A DNA stretch of 64,000 bases from Gemmobacter caeruleus (GTDB taxonomy: Bacteria; Pseudomonadota; Alphaproteobacteria; Rhodobacterales; Rhodobacteraceae), in contig NZ_VKKX01000033.1 of NCBI RefSeq assembly GCF_008271655.1, positions 186,001 through 250,000 on the forward strand, given 5' to 3'. The position numbers and the translations under genes were made by a program. Shown here piece after piece: positions 33,777 through 47,284 of this stretch. The notes below the pieces were generated by a model. The model worked only from the letters and a program-made list of their open reading frames with translations, made no database searches and was not told the DNA's origin. The stretch's first letter is position 1. Every line of letters begins with the position of its first letter.

Positions 33777-34612
33777 GCCGACAGAACCACGCGGCGGGTT
33801 TCGTCATCCACCACGGGCTTGTGGCCGAACCAGCGTTCAAAGCCGGGCACAGCCTGATGCAGCAACATGCCCAGACCATCGACGACGCGGGCGCCGCGTT
33901 CCTCGGCCTCGATCAGGAACTGGGTTTTCAGCGGTGTATAGACGATATCGGTGGCCAGCGCCCCACGCTGGAGCGCATCAAGCGGCACGGTGAAATCGGC
34001 CTTGCCGGTCATGCCAAGCGAGGTGGTGTTGATCACCGTTGCCGCGCCTTCCAGCATGGCGCCGGCCTGTGTCCAGTCATGCACGACGACGCGGGCGCCG
34101 AAATCCTTACGAAATGCCTCGGCCCGCAGACGGGTGCGGTTGGCGATCCGCACCTCGGGCACGCCGACCTCCAGCAGGGCGGCGACGACTGCCCGCGCGG
34201 CCCCGCCGGCCCCCAGCACGGCGGCCGGCCCTTCGGCAGGGCGCCAGTCAGGCGCGTTCTGGCGCAGGTTGGCGATGAAGCCCAGGCCGTCGGTATTATC
34301 GGCGTGGATCTTGCCATCCTTGCGGAAAATCACCGTATTCGCCGCCCCGATCAGCGCTGCGCGATCTGTCACGATATCGGCGATACGCAGCAGGTTTTCC
34401 TTGTGCGGCAGGGTGACATTGACCCCGACAAAGCCCATCCGGGGCAACATGCGCAGCGCGGATTCAAAATCGGCGGGCGCAATGTCGAGCGGCACATAAT
34501 GACCCTTCAACCCATAGCGCCGCAGCCAGAACCCGTGCAGCGCCGGCGAGCGGCTATGCGCGACAGGGTGCCCGATCACACCAGCCAGCGGAATGCGCGG
34601 AAGATCGGTCAT
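33773..34612 (-). CDS. aroE: Shikimate dehydrogenase
   Basis: This 279-aa protein has the shikimate-binding [16 protein letters not shown] (Ser residues, about 15-30), the catalytic [11 protein letters not shown] (Lys/Asp pair with NTDG), and the NADP-binding [13 protein letters not shown]. It reduces 3-dehydroshikimate to shikimate. Overlaps maf and coaE by 4 nt each. Confidence 0.95.
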
Positions 34613-35208
34613 GTCTCGATGAACCCCCTCTGTTCCAGATAGGCCAGCAGCGGCAGGAGCGGCAGGCCCAGAACGGTAAAGTAGTCGCCTTCGACCGAGG
34701 AGAAAAGGCGGATGCCTTCCTCCTCCAGCTTGTAGCCCCCGGCGGAGTGGCGCAGGCTGTCCCAGTTGCGCGTCAGATAGCCATCGAGCCAGATTTCGGA
34801 AAAGCGGCGCATGGTCAGATCGACGCGGCCGACATGGCGCCAGATCGGTTCACCCTTGTCATAAAGAACCACGGCAGAGAGCAGGCGGTGGGTCTGCCCG
34901 CGCAGGAGAAGCAGCTGGTCGCGGGCCTCGGCCGGCGAGGCAGGCTTGCCAAAGGCGCGGCGGTCGAATTCCAGCACCTGATCGCAGCCCAGAACCAGGG
35001 CCTCCGGGTGCTTGTCGGCCAGCTTGCGGGCCTTCATCTCGGCCAGGGCATCGGCGATATCACGGGGATGGGCGCCCTCTGCCTCCAGCGCGGCGCGGAT
35101 GGATTCCTCATCAATGCGGGCGGGCAGGGCCGTGACGGTCAGCCCGGCATTGCGCAACAGGGAAAGGCGCGTCTCGGACGCGGAGGCGAGCAAAAGGGGG
35201 CGCGACAT
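34609..35208 (-). CDS. maf: Maf-family nucleotide pyrophosphatase
   Basis: This 199-aa protein begins [20 protein letters not shown] with the Maf S-x-R signature, then [10 protein letters not shown] with the catalytic Asp. It is of the Maf/YceF type that hydrolyses modified or canonical non-cognate nucleotides; septum-inhibition names are historical. I chose the ATG at 35208 (start of homology); the frame continues upstream into the probable origin region. First gene of the leftward maf-aroE-coaE-dnaQ operon. Confidence 0.92.
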
Positions 35209-35619
35209 CTGAGGGTGCTTCTGTGGAAAATCCTGCTTTGTTCCGTTGGCCGGAAATCTGGGTAACCCGGCCCACAGCCCGGGATGGCGGGATGGGGGCC
35301 GAGTTGTCAAGACAAGCGCGGAAGATGTCCACCTGTGGGCGGCCTGTCAGGGCGGATGGGGAGGAGCGGTTGGCCCACAGGGGCAGGAAAAACGGCCCGG
35401 GACAGAATTGCTGACCAAACTGAGTCCATGATGTTGAATTTTATGAAATATTTGTGATGCCCGCGCTTTGGGCCTGACGATCATCCGACAGTTATCCCCG
35501 GAATCTGGACTGTGGAGAACTCTGGGGGCCGGGCGGGATATCCGGTTATCCCCATGCCCTATCACATCATTTTCTTTCTTCTTTCTTTTATTCATAAGAG
35601 GGGAAGAACAAGGAAGGCG
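35209..35619. other. Candidate chromosome replication origin (oriC)
   Basis: This 411-bp gap holds no convincing gene. It contains DnaA-box-like 9-mers: TGTGGAAAA at 35222-35230 (complement TTTTCCACA, fits TTWTNCACA), TTATCCCCG at 35492, TGTGGAGAA at 35511 (complement TTCTCCACA) and TTATCCCCA at 35546. An AT-rich stretch lies at about 35430-35459, and a pyrimidine tract at about 35568-35592. Genes diverge from it on both sides. Flanks are maf-aroE-coaE-dnaQ-secB on one side and hemJ-rho-mnmEG-rsmG-parAB on the other, which bracket the origin in Caulobacter-type chromosomes. The hemJ promoter must also lie here. Confidence 0.6.
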
Positions 35620-36078
35620 ATGGAACCGATGGGCGATTTTCTGGCAAGCGTTTACCCTTGGGTGAAGTTCCTGCATGTGATCTCGGTCATCAGCTGGATG
35701 GCGGGGCTGTTCTACCTGCCCCGGCTGTTTGTCTATCATGCAGAACAGGTCGGGCAGGGGAATGCGACCGATACGCTGTTTCAGACGATGGAGCGGCGGT
35801 TGCTGAAGGCGATCATGAACCCGGCGATGATCGCGAGCTGGATCTTTGGCCTGGCGCTGGTGCTGACACCGGGGATCGTGGACTGGACGATGGTCTGGCC
35901 CTGGACCAAGGCGGCAAGCGTGCTGGGGATGACCTGGTTTCACATGTGGCTGGCGGCACGGCGCAAGGATTTCGCCGGGGGGACCAATCTGCGCAGCGGC
36001 CGGACCTACCGGATGATGAACGAGGTGCCGACGATCCTGATGATCGTGATCGTGGCGTCGGTCATCGTGAAGTTCTGA
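35620..36078 (+). CDS. hemJ: HemJ, protoporphyrinogen IX oxidase
   Basis: This 152-aa protein has four membrane helices and the HemJ block VKFLHVISVISWMAGLFYLPRLFVYH with conserved His. It oxidises protoporphyrinogen IX to protoporphyrin IX in heme synthesis, replacing HemG/HemY. The ATG at 35620 follows AAGGAAGG; an ATG three codons later is possible. Sits next to rho as in many Alphaproteobacteria; provides heme also needed for the cytochromes encoded elsewhere in the window. Confidence 0.92.
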   Translation: MEPMGDFLASVYPWVKFLHVISVISWMAGLFYLPRLFVYHAEQVGQGNATDTLFQTMERRLLKAIMNPAMIASWIFGLALVLTPGIVDWTMVWPWTKAASVLGMTWFHMWLAARRKDFAGGTNLRSGRTYRMMNEVPTILMIVIVASVIVKF

Positions 36079-36186: not shown

Positions 36187-36206
36187 CGTGGATGGACGAT
36201 TTTCCC

Positions 36207-37478
36207 ATGACCCTTGAGCGGCTGAACCTTTCCGATCTGAAAGCCAAGACCCCGGCGGAACTGCTGGCCATGGCCGAGGAGTGGGAGATCGAGAACGCGC
36301 CTTCCATGCGCAAGGGCGAGATGATGTTCTCGATCCTGAAAGAGCATGCCGAGGAAGGTTGGGAAATCGGCGGCGATGGCGTGCTGGAGGTGTTGCAGGA
36401 CGGTTTCGGTTTTCTGCGCAGCCCCGAGGCGAACTATCTGCCCGGCCCGGATGATATCTATGTCAGCCCGGACATGATCCGCACCTTCAGCCTGCGCACC
36501 GGCGACACGATTGAAGGCGTGATCCAGGGCCCGCGGGACAATGAGCGTTATTTCAGCCTGGTGAAGGCGGAGCGGATCAATTTCGACGATCCCGAGAAGG
36601 CGCGTCACAAGGTGCATTTCGACAACCTCACGCCGCTTTACCCGAATGAGCGGCTGAAGATGGAAATCGACGATCCGACCATCAAGGATCGTTCGGCCCG
36701 GATCATTGATCTGGTGGCGCCGATCGGCAAGGGCCAGCGCGCGCTGATCGTCGCGCCGCCGCGCACCGGGAAAACGGTGCTGTTGCAGAACATCGCGCAT
36801 TCGATCGAGGTCAATCACCCGGAATGCTATCTGATCGTGCTGCTGATCGACGAACGGCCCGAGGAAGTGACCGACATGCAGCGCAGCGTGAAGGGTGAGG
36901 TTGTGTCCTCGACCTTTGACGAACCGGCGACGCGGCACGTTGCGGTGGCGGAGATGGTGATCGAAAAGGCCAAGCGGCTGGTCGAGCACAAGCGCGATGT
37001 GGTGATCCTGCTGGATTCCATCACGCGACTGGGGCGCGCCTTCAACACCGTGGTGCCGTCGAGCGGCAAGGTGCTGACCGGCGGTGTGGATGCCAACGCG
37101 CTGCAACGTCCGAAGCGGTTCTTTGGTGCGGCCCGGAACATCGAGGAAGGTGGTTCGCTGACCATCATCGCGACGGCGCTGATCGACACCGGCAGCCGGA
37201 TGGATGAGGTGATCTTTGAGGAGTTCAAGGGCACCGGCAACAGCGAGATCGTGCTGGACCGCAAGGTCGCCGACAAGCGGGTCTTCCCGGCGATGGACAT
37301 CCTCAAATCCGGGACGCGGAAAGAGGATCTGCTGGTCGAGAAATCCGACCTGCAAAAGACCTATGTGCTGCGCCGCATCCTGAACCCGATGGGGACCACG
37401 GATGCGATCGAGTTCCTGATCGGGAAGTTGAAGCAGACCAAGACCAACGGCGAATTCTTCGATTCGATGAACAGCTGA
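36207..37478 (+). CDS. rho: Transcription termination factor Rho
   Basis: This 423-aa protein has the N-terminal helix bundle ([20 protein letters not shown]), the RNA-binding cold-shock-like domain with [18 protein letters not shown], and the ATPase core with Walker A PPRTGKT and the DSITRLGRA segment. It is a hexameric RNA helicase that ends transcription. The ATG at 36207 gives the usual Rhodobacterales start (MTLERLNL); the ATG at 36192 adds five residues. Upstream leader contains a hairpin that may take part in autoregulation. Confidence 0.95.
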
Positions 37479-38793: not shown

Positions 38794-38809
38794 CGTTTCA
38801 CGTGAAACA
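38794..38809. repeat. parS site 1 (mnmG start)
   Basis: CGTTTCACGTGAAACA has the 14-bp palindromic ParB-binding core GTTTCACGTGAAAC. The GTG of mnmG (38802) lies in the centre of the palindrome. Confidence 0.92.
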
Positions 38810-40670
38810 TTTCGATGTCATCGTCATCGGCGGCGGGCATGCCGGATGTGAGGCAGCGGCGGCGGCGGCGCGGATGGGTGTGCAGACCGCGCTGATTACC
38901 CTGCGGCGTGAAGATCTGGGGACGATGTCCTGCAATCCCGCGATTGGCGGGTTGGGCAAGGGACATCTGGTGCGCGAGATTGACGCATTGGACGGTGTCA
39001 TGGGTCTGGTCGCGGATCAGGCGGGGATACAATTCCGGCTGTTGAACCGGCGGAAAGGGCCGGCGGTGCAGGGGCCGCGCGCGCAGGCAGATCGCAAGCT
39101 TTACCGGGCCGCCATGACGGCGGCACTGGATGCCGAGCCGAGATTGACGGTGCTGGAGGCCGAGGTTGCCGATCTGCTGCTGGATGGGGACCAGGTGCGT
39201 GGCGTGCGGCTGGCCGATGGGGCGGAGGTCTTGGCGCAGGCGGTGATCCTGACGGCGGGCACCTTCCTGAACGGGATCATCCATATCGGGGATGTGCGAC
39301 ATTCGGCCGGGCGGATGGGGGACAGGCCCTCGATCTCGCTCGCGCAGCGTCTGGCGGAGATGGGCTTGCCGCGCGGGCGCCTGAAGACGGGAACGCCGCC
39401 GCGGCTGGATGGGCGAACGATCCGCTGGGAGGGGCTGGAGAGGCAGGACGGGGATGAGACGCCGACCATGTTCTCATTCCTCAATCGTGGCGGGCCGGTG
39501 GCGCGCCAGATCAGCTGCGGCATCACGCATACGAATACCCGCACGCATGAGATCATTCGCGAGAACCTGTCGCGTTCCGCCATGTATGGCGGGCATATCG
39601 AAGGGGTCGGGCCGCGCTATTGCCCGTCGATCGAAGACAAGGTCGTGCGCTTTGCCGAGAAGGAAAGCCATCAGGTATTCTTGGAGCCCGAGGGGCTTGA
39701 TGACCACACTGTCTATCCCAACGGGATTTCGAGTTCGTTGCCGGTAGAGGTGCAGGAAGCTTATGTCCGGTCGATCGAGGGGCTGGAGGCGGTGACGATC
39801 CTGCAGCCGGCCTATGCGATCGAGTATGATTATTTTGACCCCCGCGGGCTGACGGAGACGCTGGAAAGCAAACGTTTCAAGGGGCTGTATCTCGCCGGGC
39901 AGATCAATGGCACGACGGGGTATGAAGAGGCAGCGGCGCAGGGCTTGGTGGCAGCGTTGAATGCCGCGTCTGGTGTCCTCGGGCGCGATCGGATCGTATT
40001 CAGCCGCACCGACAGCTACATCGGGGTGATGATCGACGATCTGATCACCTTTGGTGTGTCGGAGCCCTATCGAATGTTCACCTCGCGTGCGGAATATCGT
40101 CTGACGATTCGCGCAGATAATGCCGATCAGCGGCTGACACCTTTTGGTGTGGCGCGGGGATGTGTGCGGGAGGGGCGCCGCCAAGCCTTTGACGCGAAGA
40201 TGGAGGCGCTGTCGCGTGGGCGTGATGCGCTTGCTGCGATTTCGTTTACCCCGAAACAGGCGCGGGAACTGGGCATCGAGGTCAGCCAGGACGGCGGGCG
40301 GCGCAGTGCGCTTGATCTGCTGACCTTTCCGGATGCGAGCGTGGATATGTTCGATACCCATGCTGCCGAATTCACCGCGCTTTCCCCGCTGATGCGGGAG
40401 CAAGTCCGTAATGATGCGCTTTATGCGCGGTTTGCTGAGCGGCAATCGGTGGATATCGCCGCGTTGCGCAAGGATGAGGCGACCCTCATTCCGGCGGATT
40501 TCGACTATGCTGCGCTTTCGGGTTTGTCCGGGGAGTTGACGCAAAAGCTCGTGCGGCAGCGACCTACGACTTTGGCGCAGGCGGGCCGGATCGAAGGGAT
40601 GACGCCGGCGGCGCTAGTGCTGATCCTGGCGCATATTCGTCGCGGTCAAAGGAGTGTGGCCGCAGGATGA
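38802..40670 (+). CDS. mnmG: MnmG, tRNA uridine-5-carboxymethylaminomethyl modification enzyme
   Basis: This 622-aa FAD protein starts [19 protein letters not shown], with the FAD motif GGGHAGCE at about residues 10-17, and contains the GidA signatures [11 protein letters not shown] and [13 protein letters not shown]. It partners MnmE. The start is a GTG inside parS site 1; GTG-AAA-CAT encodes the first three residues, and AGTAGGAG upstream supplies the ribosome binding site. The stop overlaps the rsmG ATG. Full length for the family. Confidence 0.95.
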
Positions 40671-41275
40671 CGACTAAAGGCATCAATGTTTCACGTGAAA
40701 CACAGGAGAAGCTGGCGCTCTATGTTGATCTGCTGACCAAGTGGACCGCCCGTATCAATCTGATTTCCAAATCCACGATCCCGCATATCTGGGAGCGGCA
40801 TATAGAGGACTCGCTGCAACTTGCGCGCTTTCTGGCGCCTGAACAGCGGGTCTGGGCGGATATCGGCTCTGGTGGCGGTCTCCCGGGGCTGGTTCTGGCG
40901 ATTGCTGCGCTGGAACTGGCGCCCGATCTGTCATTTGATATGGTCGAGGTGGATCAGCGCAAGGCGACATTCCTGCGTGAGGTTGCGCGTCAGGTTGGGC
41001 TGCCGGTCCGGGTGCATGCCTGCAAGATCGAGCAACTTGCGCCGCTTCAGGCTGATGTTCTGTCGGCGCGGGCCCTTGCGCCTTTGGCCGAGCTTTGCGG
41101 ACATGCCGCCCGTCATCTTGCGCCGCATGGAATGGCGATTTTTCCGAAAGGCGGAAACTACCTGAGTGAAATTGAACAGGCGCGGCAAAATTGGGATTTC
41201 CATATCCAGCAGCAGCCAAGTACAACCCTGTCCGAAGCCCGTATTCTGGTTCTGAGCAATATCCATCATGTCTGA
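40667..41275 (+). CDS. rsmG: RsmG, 16S rRNA (G527-N7) methyltransferase
   Basis: This 202-aa methyltransferase has the SAM motif [16 protein letters not shown] (about residues 64-79) and the N-terminal [13 protein letters not shown] region. It methylates G527 of 16S rRNA. Residues 8-12 (VSRET) are encoded by a perfect parS site, a feature seen in RsmG of many bacteria with parAB downstream. Overlaps mnmG by 4 nt and parA by 8 nt. Confidence 0.95.
40687..40702. repeat. parS site 2 (inside rsmG)
   Basis: TGTTTCACGTGAAACA, a perfect 16-bp palindrome, lies near the 5' end of rsmG and is read as Val-Ser-Arg-Glu-Thr. Confidence 0.95.
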
Positions 41276-42092
41276 TCCCTCGCGCCCGCCGCTGCCCAAG
41301 ATCATCGCCATCACCAATCAGAAGGGCGGCGTCGGCAAGACCACCACCGCGATCAATTTGGCGGCGGGTTTTGCCGAGCTTGGCGCGCGGGTCCTGATCG
41401 TCGATCTGGATCCGCAGGGGAATGCCTCTACGGGCCTGGGCGTGGAGCCGGCATCGCGTCAAGTGACCAGCTACGACGTTTTGCTCGAGGATCTGCCGAT
41501 CGACGAGGCGGTCCAGCCGACGGTCATCCCCAATCTCTGGGTTTGCCCGGCCAATGCCGATCTGGCCTCTGCCGATATCGAGCTTGTCGCGAATGAAAAG
41601 CGGAGCTTTTTGCTGCATGACGCCCTGCGCGATGTGAAGATTGATGCGCTCGGGCTGGACTATGTGCTGCTGGACTGTCCTCCCTCGCTCAGCCTTCTGA
41701 CGGTGAACGCGCTTTGCGCGGCGCATTCCGTGCTGATCCCGCTTCAGGCTGAATTCTTTGCGCTAGAGGGACTATCGCAGCTCATGCTCACCATTCGCAC
41801 GGTGCGGGAGAGCGCAAATCCCGGTCTTCGGATTGAGGGTGTAGTGCTGACCATGTATGATGGGCGCAATAACCTGTCGCAACAGGTGGAGCGGGATGTG
41901 CGCCAGACGCTCGGGTCGCTGGTTTTTGATACGATCATCCCGCGCAACGTTCGCGTCAGCGAGGCGCCGTCCTTTGCGCTGCCGGTGCTGTCTTACGATG
42001 CGGCCTCGAAAGGGAGCGAGGCCTATCGCGGCCTTGCATTGGAAATTGCCACGCGCAATGGTTTCCGCGCGAGTTCGGCTGAAAGGAAATGA
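41268..42092 (+). CDS. parA: ParA, chromosome partitioning ATPase
   Basis: This 274-aa protein has the deviant Walker [10 protein letters not shown] (about residues 19-27), Walker A' [12 protein letters not shown] and Walker [14 protein letters not shown]. It forms gradients on the nucleoid that move ParB-parS complexes. It lacks an N-terminal DNA-binding extension, so it is the chromosomal (Soj) type rather than a plasmid ParA of type Ia. Coupled to rsmG and parB. Confidence 0.95.
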
Positions 42093-43021
42093 GCATGGAG
42101 CGCAAGTCGGATCGGCGGGGCTTGGGGCGCGGGCTTTCCGCGCTGATGGCGGATATCAATCTCGACAGCGCCCCCGTTGACACCGGAGCGGCCGCTGCCG
42201 GGCGACCCAAACGCGACATGATGCCGGTCGAAAAGCTGGAGGCCAATCCAGCGCAGCCTCGACGGCGTTTCTCTGACGATGATCTGCGCGACCTTGCCGA
42301 TTCCATCCGCCTGAAGGGTGTCTTGCAGCCGCTGATCGTGCGGCCGATGGCCGGGCGTGATGGTATTTTTGAGATCGTGGCGGGCGAACGCCGTTGGCGG
42401 GCCGCGCAGATCGCACAAGTGCACGAAGTGCCGGTCGTCGTGCGTGATTTCGACGATGGCGAAGTGCTTGAGGTAGCGATCATCGAGAATATTCAGCGCG
42501 CCGATCTGGACCCGATCGAGGAGGCGCTGGCGTTTCGTCAGCTGATGGATCGTTTCGGCCATACGCAGGAAAAGCTGGCCGAGGCCCTTTCCAAGAGCCG
42601 GAGCTATATCGCGAACCTGTTGCGTTTGCTCGCTCTTCCCGATGAAGTGCGCGAGATGGTGTCGGATGGCCGCCTGTCTGCCGGCCACGCGCGGGCGTTG
42701 ATCACTGTGCAGGATCCGGTCGAAATGGCGCGCCGCGTCGTTGAGAAGGGGCTTTCGGTGCGTGAGACTGAGGCGATGGTGCGGGCTCTGTCGGATCGAC
42801 CTGAGCCAGTGAAGCGCGCGCGTAGCGCTGTTGCAAATCAGGAAGTTGATGCCGATACCCGTGCGCTCCAGCATGATCTGTCTGCCAACCTGAACATGTC
42901 GGTCACCATCCGGCATGAACCGGGTGGTGAGGTAGGGATCCTCAGCATCCGCTATAATACGCTTGAGGATCTGGATTTCCTGTGCCAGGCGCTGTCTGTT
43001 GCCAAGCGTGACATGTTCTAG
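42089..43021 (+). CDS. parB: ParB, chromosome partitioning CTPase/DNA-binding protein
   Basis: This 310-aa protein has the N-terminal [14 protein letters not shown] motif for ParA contact, a ParB/Srx CTP-binding domain (LRPLIVRP-like segment, then GERRWRAAQ at about residues 97-105), an HTH ([20 protein letters not shown]) and a C-terminal dimerisation domain. It loads at parS and spreads. Four parS sites lie within 4.3 kb of it on either side. Overlaps parA by 4 nt; convergent with hemW, 2 nt apart. Confidence 0.95.
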
Positions 43022-43023
43022 GG

Positions 43024-44211
43024 CTACAGGGCCTCGACGAGCTTCAACAAAACAGCATTGAGCAGCGGACGGCCCTTCGGGGTTGTGCGCAGCCGATCTT
43101 CGGTATGTTCCAGCATGCCGAGTGTGGTCAGCTCCGCGACGATATCAGAGCTCGTGGTCAGGCCGGTCAGTCGTTGCAGCCGATCCAGTGCAACACCCTC
43201 CCTGAGCCGCAGACCCATGAGCAGAAATTCCGTGCCGATATCCTGTGCTGAGAGCGTGTGATCCAGATCTTCCAAGCGACCCGCGCTGGCCGCAGACAGC
43301 CACCCGGCTGGATCGCGCGCGGCAGCAGTCGCGATTCGCGCGTCTTTCAGCGTCACTCTCCCATGTGCGCCCGGGCCGATACCGATGAAATCGCCGGATT
43401 TCCAATAGATCTGGTTGTGCCGCGATTCCGCCCCCTCGCGTGCATGGTTGGAGATTTCATAGGCCGGCATGCCGGCGGCCTCACAAAGTTTCTGGGTCAG
43501 ATCGTGGAAATCTGCCCCAAGGTCTTCGCTCGGCAGGCCCGGCAACAATCCACGCCGAAAGCGTTCGTTGAAGACGGTCCCTTCCTCAATTGTCAGTTGA
43601 TAGAGTGACAGGTGATTGCTACCAAAGCTCAGAGCACGGGTGAGTTCGGCCTCCCAAGCCGCAAGTGTCTGGTTCTGGCGGGCATAGATCAGGTCAAAGG
43701 AGTAGCGATCAAACAGGTTCGCAGTCGTCTCCAATGCAAGCAGGGCTTCGGTGCTGCTATGGGTGCGACCGAGTCGGCGAAGATCTTCGTCATTCAGGGC
43801 CTGAACGCCGAGCGAGATTCTGTTCACGCCTGCATGTCGATAGGCGGCGAGACGCGCGGCCTCGACCGAGGTCGGGTTGGCCTCAAGCGTGATCTCGATA
43901 TCATTCGCAAACCGCCATTCGCGCGCGGCCGTTTCCAGCAGCCGCTCCACCAACTTTGGCTCCATCAGTGAAGGCGTGCCGCCGCCAAAATAGATCGAAT
44001 TGAGCGTTCGCTCTGGTGTCAATCGGGCATTACGGGCGATTTCCTTCACATAGGCATCGGCCCAGGCATTCTGGTCGATCTGCGCAGCGACATGGCTATT
44101 GAAGTCGCAATAGGGGCATTTCGAAAGGCAGAAAGGCCAATGAACGTAGAGCCCAAAGCCGCCTTGTCGCCAGTCGTCCTGCGTCGCAGCCGAGTGTTTC
44201 ACGTGAAACAT
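43024..44211 (-). CDS. hemW: HemW, heme chaperone-type radical SAM protein
   Basis: This 395-aa protein has the radical SAM motif CLSKCPYCDF (CxxxCxxC) and the FGGGTPSLM segment; it is the HemW (formerly HemN-like) group, which lacks the extra residues of true coproporphyrinogen III dehydrogenase and binds or transfers heme. I chose the ATG at 44211, giving MFHVKH, which is encoded by parS site 3; this start is supported because the site is conserved in shape and the preceding gene ends within it. The homologous core begins about residue 18 (FGLYVHWPF). Confidence 0.88.
   Translation of the reverse strand: MFHVKHSAATQDDWRQGGFGLYVHWPFCLSKCPYCDFNSHVAAQIDQNAWADAYVKEIARNARLTPERTLNSIYFGGGTPSLMEPKLVERLLETAAREWRFANDIEITLEANPTSVEAARLAAYRHAGVNRISLGVQALNDEDLRRLGRTHSSTEALLALETTANLFDRYSFDLIYARQNQTLAAWEAELTRALSFGSNHLSLYQLTIEEGTVFNERFRRGLLPGLPSEDLGADFHDLTQKLCEAAGMPAYEISNHAREGAESRHNQIYWKSGDFIGIGPGAHGRVTLKDARIATAAARDPAGWLSAASAGRLEDLDHTLSAQDIGTEFLLMGLRLREGVALDRLQRLTGLTTSSDIVAELTTLGMLEHTEDRLRTTPKGRPLLNAVLLKLVEAL
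44195..44210. repeat. parS site 3 (rdgB stop / hemW start)
   Basis: TGTTTCACGTGAAACA, a perfect 16-bp palindrome. On the minus strand it carries the last codons and TGA of rdgB (TGT-TTC-ACG-TGA) and, in another frame, the start of hemW (ATG-TTT-CAC-GTG-AAA). Confidence 0.95.
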
Positions 44212-44807
44212 CCCGCCAGCAGCTTGCGGAAGGCATCGGCGCGGTGGCTGATCCGGTTCTTCAGTGCCCAATCCATTTCGCCAAAGGTGATGTCGTGGCC
44301 ATCTGGGCGAAAGATCGGGTCATATCCATGCCCGGCCTCGCCGCGCATCGGCCAGACGATCTCTCCTTCAACAACACCCTCAAAGACCTCATCATGGCCA
44401 TCTGGCCAGGCCATGACCAAGGTGCAGTGAAAGGCGGCGCGATATGGCGCTGACGTGCCGCTTGCCTGAAGCTCCGCCCAGACCCGCGCCATGGCAATAT
44501 CAAACTGGCGGCCACTTGGCGTTTCCGCCCAATCTGCGGTGTAAACGCCGGGCGCGCCGCCCAAAGCCGCAACACATAGACCGGAATCGTCTGCCAGCGA
44601 CGGCAATCCGGTTGCCGAGGCTGCCGCATGCGCCTTGATCCGGGCATTGCCGACGAAGCTGTTCTCGGTTTCAGCCGGCTCAGCCAGCCCCAACTCGCCA
44701 GCCGAAACCACCTCGATCTGCATGGGAGCGAGGAGGAGACGGATCTCCTCCAGCTTTCCCTTGTTGTGGGTCGCAAGAACCAGCTTCGATCCGGCGAGAT
44801 TTCTCAT
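44199..44807 (-). CDS. rdgB: RdgB, dITP/XTP pyrophosphatase
   Basis: This 202-aa Ham1/RdgB protein has [14 protein letters not shown] (substrate-binding Asn/Lys, about residues 9-22), [10 protein letters not shown] with catalytic Asp, and a C-terminal [13 protein letters not shown] and SHRADAF. It hydrolyses deaminated purine nucleoside triphosphates. Its last three codons and stop lie within parS site 3, so the protein ends Cys-Phe-Thr. Overlaps rph by 4 nt and hemW by 13 nt. Confidence 0.94.
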
Positions 44808-47268: not shown

Positions 47269-47284
47269 TGTTTCACGTGAAACG
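47269..47284. repeat. parS site 4 (downstream of grpE)
   Basis: TGTTTCACGTGAAACG retains the full 14-bp core GTTTCACGTGAAAC, with only the last flanking base different. It is the one site outside coding sequence, 4 nt after the grpE stop. Confidence 0.9.

Follow-up and report, generated by a model that had tools for sequence, protein, structure and literature searches.

The question raised by this locus is whether the short gap between a presumed maf gene and hemJ, which are transcribed away from each other, is the place at which replication of the host chromosome begins. The window analysed, by which the whole 64-kb stretch of DNA is meant, comprises positions 186001-250000 of contig C23 in a 3.99-Mb assembly of 55 contigs. 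Judging from Maf matches, the host is a Gemmobacter-like Rhodobacteraceae bacterium, the closest named matches among those listed being from Gemmobacter, with G. lutimaris showing 83% identity. From the features described below, the chromosomal origin (oriC) of this bacterium can be assigned with high probability to the gap between maf and hemJ, which occupies the place of Cori in Caulobacter.

The position of the origin is already known for the family, and as a kind the element is known. On the basis of DoriC, a report on Ketogulonicigenium vulgare Hbe602 describes an oriC beside maf as a conserved trait of Rhodobacteraceae (PMC4793288). The origins of 101 Rhodobacteraceae have been placed by means of Ori-Finder, skew, and parAB (PMC6699656), and the origin regions of R. 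sphaeroides have been located by skew (PMC6315104). In the DoriC/Ori-Finder predictions the origin lies directly beside maf, as it does here, and nothing essential differs from the origin as the accessible text of that source presents it, the other neighbour and the inner layout being what is described here (PMC4793288). No publication on the hemJ side or on neighbour turnover in Rhodobacteraceae was recognised by title, which is no proof of absence. The gap and its principal neighbours are the following.

35209..35628: predicted oriC region, the maf-hemJ gap (the earlier 35209-35619, lengthened to the hemJ start that the alignment of relatives indicates)
34612..35208, minus strand: left flank, an ORF taken to be maf
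35629..36078, plus strand: right flank, hemJ (PF03653 match)
36192..37478, plus strand: presumably rho, in the right-hand gene block
41268..42092, plus strand: presumably parA
42089..43021, plus strand: presumably parB

The ATG codon of hemJ is at either 35620 or 35629, and the start aligned within the genus favours the latter. To the right of hemJ, the plus-strand genes are taken to be, in this order, rho, mnmE, mnmG (the ORF starting at 38802), rsmG (40667-41275), parA, and parB, and the minus-strand genes to the left of the gap are presumed to include aroE, coaE, and dnaQ; the left genes (maf, aroE, coaE, dnaQ) and the right genes (hemJ to parB) are both directed away from the gap. The preliminary description of this DNA had reported divergent flanks with maf abutting the gap, and this arrangement was recovered, maf lying on the minus strand at 34612-35208, hemJ lying on the plus strand, and the gap starting at 35209, that is, at the maf start codon, in the manner of the maf-adjacent oriC of Rhodobacteraceae. 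The absence of hemE and of a small regulator gene from the gap edges had also been pointed out. Both hemE and ppsR are indeed missing there, with hemE sitting on another contig (C12:478 kb) and ppsR (PF03618, COG1806/DUF299) not found in the 55-contig assembly, but such absence is the norm among the sampled genomes of the family rather than a peculiarity. The dnaA gene is located at C23:370 kb, 149 kb from the gap.

Within the gap, a series of DnaA-box-like and other conserved elements can be distinguished, the mismatches of the boxes being counted against TTATCCACA.

35222..35230, minus strand: DnaA box TTTTCCACA, 1 mismatch; TGTGGAAAA in 10/10 same-genus sequences
35304..35311, plus strand: TTGTCAAG element, in 10/10 same-genus sequences
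35326..35339: TGTCCACCTGTGGG, two weak DnaA-box-like halves head-to-head; TCCACYTGTG (35328) in 10/10 same-genus sequences
35374..35380, plus strand: CCCACAG, weak box-like element, conserved in part
35492..35500, plus strand: DnaA box TTATCCCCG, 2 mismatches; TTRTCC in 10/10 same-genus sequences
35511..35519, minus strand: DnaA box TTCTCCACA, 1 mismatch; TGTGG in 10/10 same-genus sequences
35546..35554, plus strand: DnaA box TTATCCCCA, 1 mismatch, facing the unwinding tract; TTWTCC in 10/10 same-genus sequences

All four of the 9-mers originally proposed, at 35222, 35492, 35511, and 35546, are present, and the one at 35222 is, as had been stated, the sole match to the strict consensus TTWTNCACA; no exact DnaA box occurs in the gap. 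Three one-mismatch boxes are found there against 0.06 expected, a number reached in 0/300 dinucleotide shuffles, and six boxes with at most two mismatches against 0.96 expected (again 0/300 shuffles), which constitutes the above-chance box cluster of an oriC. When 400 kb of the contig were divided into 7992 overlapping windows of 411 bp, six boxes were reached in just one of them, the next best having five, and the gap is therefore the densest 411-bp cluster of those 400 kb, the regions scanned in all covering about 15% of the genome. The whole window of 64 kb contains 12 boxes with one mismatch against 3.4 expected, and three of these 12 fall within the gap. The box at 35222 stands 13 bp ahead of the maf start codon (35206-35230), and in 61 of 128 gaps, 77 of which come from the best 80 of 441 confirmed places, TGTGGANAA is found no more than 40 bp from where maf starts; DnaA may regulate maf as well.

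The conservation of these elements was examined at the level of the genus and of the family. An alignment of 10 same-genus sequences (the window and nine others) has all four boxes (35222, 35492, 35511, and 35546) in register in every member, although the gap varies in its middle part, and a CATCAT word precedes the T-rich tract in nine of them. Two wider sets, which share genomes, were also compiled: one of 51 gaps (the window, the nine same-genus sequences, and 41 family genomes), which is biased to hemJ-adjacent genomes because the latter were hand-picked with maf and hemJ on one contig, and a named set consisting of the best 80 of 441 confirmed places. From the named set 77 gaps were used in the statistics, and three loci (L188, L201, and L235), which have no hemJ across the gap, were left out and examined separately. 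One-mismatch boxes average 3.22 per gap in the set of 51, against 0.10 after shuffling, with at least two in 47 gaps and none in two; in the 77 named gaps (from the best 80 of 441) the average is 2.40 against 0.09, with at least two in 56 and none in two. The core measures 351-478 bp across 128 gaps (77 of these from the best 80 of 441). At its right end, the consensus is CCCTACaaCATCATCATC followed by T-rich DNA, both in the 51 sequences and in the 128 gaps (77 from the best 80 of 441), for which the hemJ-side gap ends are off by some bases.

A DNA search of 61 genomes with the gap returned six matches including this genome, all from the same genus, of which 11 members had been drawn; beyond the genus, the gap thus cannot be aligned by this means. 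The pattern CCTACNNNATCATCATC gave 22 matches in 21 of 149 family genomes, 14 of them in the origin gap and eight elsewhere or unplaced, as read off the coordinates; reversed, it gave two matches, and 128 of the 149 genomes, including this one, carry no exact match to the forward pattern. A stricter pattern was dropped after it matched one of 61 sequences. A class-wide pattern, which had two matches in 385 genomes, is uninformative because it misses this genome and all four of the other family members drawn.

An AT-rich stretch at 35430-35459 had been singled out in the preliminary description; it is real and belongs to the 40-bp place that ranks second in instability within the window, but a likelier unwinding site was found near the right end of the gap. 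According to nearest-neighbour energies for 40-bp places over the 64 kb, stability is lowest at the place starting at 35559, which falls in the T-rich tract ahead of hemJ, beside the box at 35546, and second lowest at that starting at 35418; with 30-bp windows, 48699 is least stable, 35569 second, and 35428 third (in the stability figures, too, the hemJ-side gap end is off by some bases). The boxes are thereby adjoined by the easily melted AT-rich element expected of an oriC.

35418..35459: central AT-rich block, varying in sequence within the genus
35559..35600: probable DNA unwinding element, with a pyrimidine-rich plus strand; includes the 40-bp place of lowest stability in the 64 kb, which starts at 35559
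35566..35583: six DnaA-trio-like triplets, plus strand ATC ATT TTC TTT CTT CTT, 11 bp past the box at 35546

In the basal unwinding system, the published rule requires a box with at most two mismatches, a spacer of 0-16 bp, and at least three triplets of the form 3'-NAN-5', and a simplified copy of this rule, as given in the available text, was used for scanning (PMC8287927). The arrangement at the right end of the gap, namely the box at 35546, an 11-bp spacer, and six triplets, conforms to it. The likeness to the system of Bacillus subtilis and others extends to the box, the spacer (the published peak being 10-13 bp), the six mid-adenine triplets, and the unstable DNA, whereas the first triplets are 3'-TAG-5' and 3'-TAA-5' here and 3'-GAT-5' is the commonest in the part of the source consulted (PMC8287927). 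With at least three triplets required on the hemJ-facing strand, the pattern occurs in 37 of the 51 gaps (shuffle mean 7.1; other strand 17) and in 57 of the 77 named gaps from the best 80 of 441 (shuffle mean 8.9; other strand 25). With at least six triplets, it is found on the hemJ-facing strand in 10/51 gaps (shuffle mean 0.17) and in 10/77 named gaps from the best 80 of 441 (shuffle mean 0.40), and on the other strand in none of either set. At three triplets the rule is only mildly specific; it is not followed by some members of the Rhodobacteraceae, and what is described here is a pattern in the sequence. Among 10 gaps bordered by ppsR or hemE, two conform to it, and in one of the two the pattern lies well away from the right end. 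The strand counts therefore support the direction of the element, but the pattern is no universal mark.

The genes that border the gap vary considerably within the family. In a sample of 149 family genomes, drawn evenly from a larger group, ppsR (PF03618) is present in seven and adjoins maf in all seven, and hemE adjoins the locus in eight, as seen by eye from the coordinates (G004, G017, G054, G083, G093, G101, G122, and G146). A PF03653 match exists somewhere in 136 of the 149. Spacing between maf and hemJ was counted in the 134 genomes with a listed maf orthologue: hemJ lies within 3 kb of maf in 105, divergently in every case and at a distance of 330-560 bp in 95; it is found only elsewhere in 25, and no hemJ match was obtained in four. 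In two of these 25, G083 and G146, hemJ adjoins hemE on a different contig from maf. In 23 of the 134 genomes (e.g., G052, G070, and G020), the non-adjacent hemJ has a much weaker best PF03653 match (E 8.9e-25 to 5.4e-19), and, judging from these matches, it looks as if hemJ had been swapped for a distant homologue.

In the named set, hemJ stands across the gap in 77 of the 80 loci (the best 80 of 441), and it does so in 51/51 of the other set. In L188, L201, and L235, there is no hemJ opposite maf; the ORFs show rho as the next gene in two of them, and in the third the sequence runs into what resembles the start of rho. These loci retain one, four, and three one-mismatch boxes, respectively, together with the T-rich right-end tract, and the CATCA word is present in L188 and L201 and absent from L235. 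The 10 gaps bordered by ppsR or hemE each contain one to three one-mismatch boxes, against zero or one in the rest of these loci, the limits of some of the gaps being off by some bases, the L105 stretch entering hemJ, and the left limit of the L112 gap being the end of the fetched stretch. In L110, L111, and L112, boxes and a T-rich tract precede hemE in a weaker form. The neighbour pairs observed around the gap are thus ppsR and hemE, ppsR and hemJ, maf and hemE, maf and hemJ, and maf and rho, and L104 and L106 have the order maf, ppsR, gap, hemE, hemJ. Since the boxes and the tract are kept beside differing genes, the DNA core is independent of the adjoining gene.

Comparison with Cori of Caulobacter crescentus reveals both likeness and difference. 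An AT-rich stretch, several DnaA boxes, and a nearby parS are common to both, as far as the available portions of the sources describe Cori (PMC1914354, PMC6399470). Cori is situated between hemE and COG1806 and contains five CtrA sites and an IHF site according to the accessible text (PMC1914354), whereas the window gap lacks hemE and ppsR as direct flanks and holds no consensus match to either kind of site. Neither the strict nor the loose form of the CtrA motif (TTAA-N7-TTAA) occurs in the window gap, and no match was found there to one written IHF consensus, IHF sites being degenerate. A CtrA or IHF site within the central AT block was considered and dropped, no consensus match being found in the window. 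With hemJ-side gap ends off by some bases, the strict CtrA site occurs in 4/51 gaps and in 3/77 named gaps (best 80 of 441), and the IHF consensus, for sites that are degenerate, is matched in 1/51 and 4/77 (best 80 of 441). The loose form TTWW-N7-TTWW was seen in 30/51 gaps and 51/77 named gaps (best 80 of 441), and TTAA half-sites, none of which lies in the window gap, in 44/51 and 61/77 (best 80 of 441), both counts being without a shuffle control. Two GANTC sites are present in the window gap, at 35422 and 35501.

Strand asymmetry changes around the locus, and its location is only rough. GC skew is +0.003 over 200 kb to the left (C23:21001-221208) and +0.056 over 199 kb to the right. Breakpoints fit best 4-14 kb to the left of the gap, with none of 200 permutations of 10-kb blocks giving as good a fit, and placing the breakpoint at the gap itself costs 2.0-3.7 log-likelihood units relative to the best fit. 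The cumulative-skew minimum of the 400 kb read lies at contig position 129216, 92 kb to the left of the gap, because the left side is flat. The octamer GGGNAGGG has a plus:minus ratio of 24:39 on the left and 32:16 on the right, with the minimum of its walk 38 kb to the left. In G151, a same-genus genome from which 20 stretches, each of 20 kb, were sampled along a 3.38-Mb contig, skew is positive in 10/10 stretches on the right and negative in 8/10 on the left, the nearest and the farthest left stretches being positive, and the octamer counts are 42:6 on the right and 14:39 on the left. In G123, whose record carries hemJ on the left, skew is negative in 10/10 stretches on the hemJ side and positive in 6/10 on the maf side, the nearest maf-side stretch being slightly negative, with octamer counts of 1:22 and 18:9, respectively. 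The skew switch of an oriC thus appears here as a step from about zero to +0.056, as a sign change in G151, and in noisier form in G123. A rearrangement of the left arm is perhaps behind its flatness, the left side of G151 being mostly negative.

The preliminary description had held that a skew minimum beside dnaA or hemE would speak against an origin in the gap, and both places were inspected. No skew switch exists at dnaA (+0.037 on the left and +0.090 on the right over 40 kb); at hemE, the skew is near zero and the strand of GGGNAGGG is unchanged over 200 kb. In that hemE region (C12:379001-579000), the octamer occurs eight times on the plus and 55 times on the minus strand despite the near-zero GC skew, and for this genome it may be a better indicator of replichore direction than GC skew.

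The genes and sites for segregation lie to the right of the gap. According to the available text of one survey, parAB is near the ori in almost all genomes (PMC8116508), and the distance between parS and Cori in Caulobacter is given as about 8 kb (PMC6399470). A scan tolerating up to three mismatches yielded four parS-like palindromes with zero or one mismatch against 0.04 expected, with four in 0/100 shuffles, at distances of 3.2-11.7 kb from the gap.

38794..38809, plus strand: parS-like site, 1 mismatch, spanning the start of the ORF at 38802
40687..40702, plus strand: exact parS-like site, close to where the ORF 40667-41275 begins
44195..44210, plus strand: exact parS-like site, where two minus-strand ORFs, 43024-44271 and 44199-44807, overlap
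47269..47284, plus strand: parS-like site, 1 mismatch

At least three of these four sites lie across or inside long ORFs.

The original proposal of a probable chromosome origin is therefore supported by the boxes, their conservation, the duplex instability, the parAB genes and parS-like sites, the shared gene order, and the skew. The gap could alternatively be a mere divergent promoter or leader of maf and hemJ, in which the box-like words are regulatory or due to chance. It is true that divergent genes require promoters, that the T-rich tract stands immediately ahead of hemJ, and that the skew curve of this assembly covers part of the genome. However, the boxes and the tract are found ahead of rho in the hemJ-less loci L188, L201, and L235 and, more weakly, ahead of hemE in L110, L111, and L112, the box excess is far over shuffles in both the 51 and the 77 gaps (the latter from the best 80 of 441), and skew changes around the locus in G151 and G123, and we consider a purely regulatory gap very improbable. 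It is still harder to believe that the active origin lies elsewhere, whether by dnaA, by hemE, or in another cluster, and that the gap is a relic of an ancestral origin. The absence of a skew switch at dnaA and hemE, the lack of any two-mismatch box in the roughly 530 bp ahead of hemE, the presence of just three such boxes in the 3 kb around the dnaA start, and the skew switch around the locus in the same-genus chromosome of G151 all speak against it, and boxes aligned in 10/10 same-genus sequences would hardly be expected of a relic. Its support comes from the weakness of the boxes, the left side nearly without skew, a box-cluster scan limited to about 15% of the genome, and two rival 411-bp windows with five two-mismatch boxes each, at C23:179.8 kb and at C12:490.6-490.8 kb, the latter 12 kb from hemE.

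Another alternative concerns the inner layout of an origin in this place, in which unwinding would begin at the central AT block (35418-35459) and the right tract would mainly be the leader of hemJ. Among the 40-bp places of the window the block ranks second in instability, and the mean of 128 gaps (77 from the best 80 of 441; hemJ-side ends off by some bases) shows an AT peak at the same distance, reaching 0.73 in one 20-bp bin when counted from maf and 0.71 when counted from hemJ. Nevertheless, the sequence and length of the block vary within the genus whereas the right tract aligns, the right tract is less stable and adjoins a conserved box that faces it, and T-rich DNA persists in the three hemJ-less loci; this layout is accordingly judged unlikely, although it deserves more credence than the two preceding alternatives.

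For an origin that opens at its right-hand tract, the following course of events is likely. DnaA would bind the scattered, mostly weak boxes over about 330 bp, with those at 35511 (minus strand) and 35546 (plus strand) serving as a platform. From the box at 35546, a DnaA filament would cross the spacer onto the triplets at 35566-35583 and open the DNA at 35559-35600. Helicases would then be loaded, and forks would depart in both directions, leftward through maf, aroE, coaE, and dnaQ and rightward from hemJ to parB. ParB acting on the parS sites 3.2-11.7 kb to the right would separate the new origins.

For the family as a whole, the chances appear about even that Rhodobacteraceae share a compact, self-contained origin core, with an unwinding word of its own (CCCTACaaCATCATCATC and the T-rich tract, with a 3'-TAG-5' variant of the DnaA-trio) and a central AT block kept in position, and that this core stayed in place while ppsR, hemE, and hemJ each disappeared from its edges by loss or relocation. 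The conservation of a core with a trio-like word amid exchanging neighbours is perhaps what is new. In practical terms, the probable origin of this genome is narrowed to about 420 bp, and hemE or ppsR is of no use for locating origins in most of the sampled family, for which maf and the right-end tract are usable. Furthermore, nature provides in these loci a set of origins whose neighbours have been exchanged, with which the role of the neighbouring genes in initiation can be tested.
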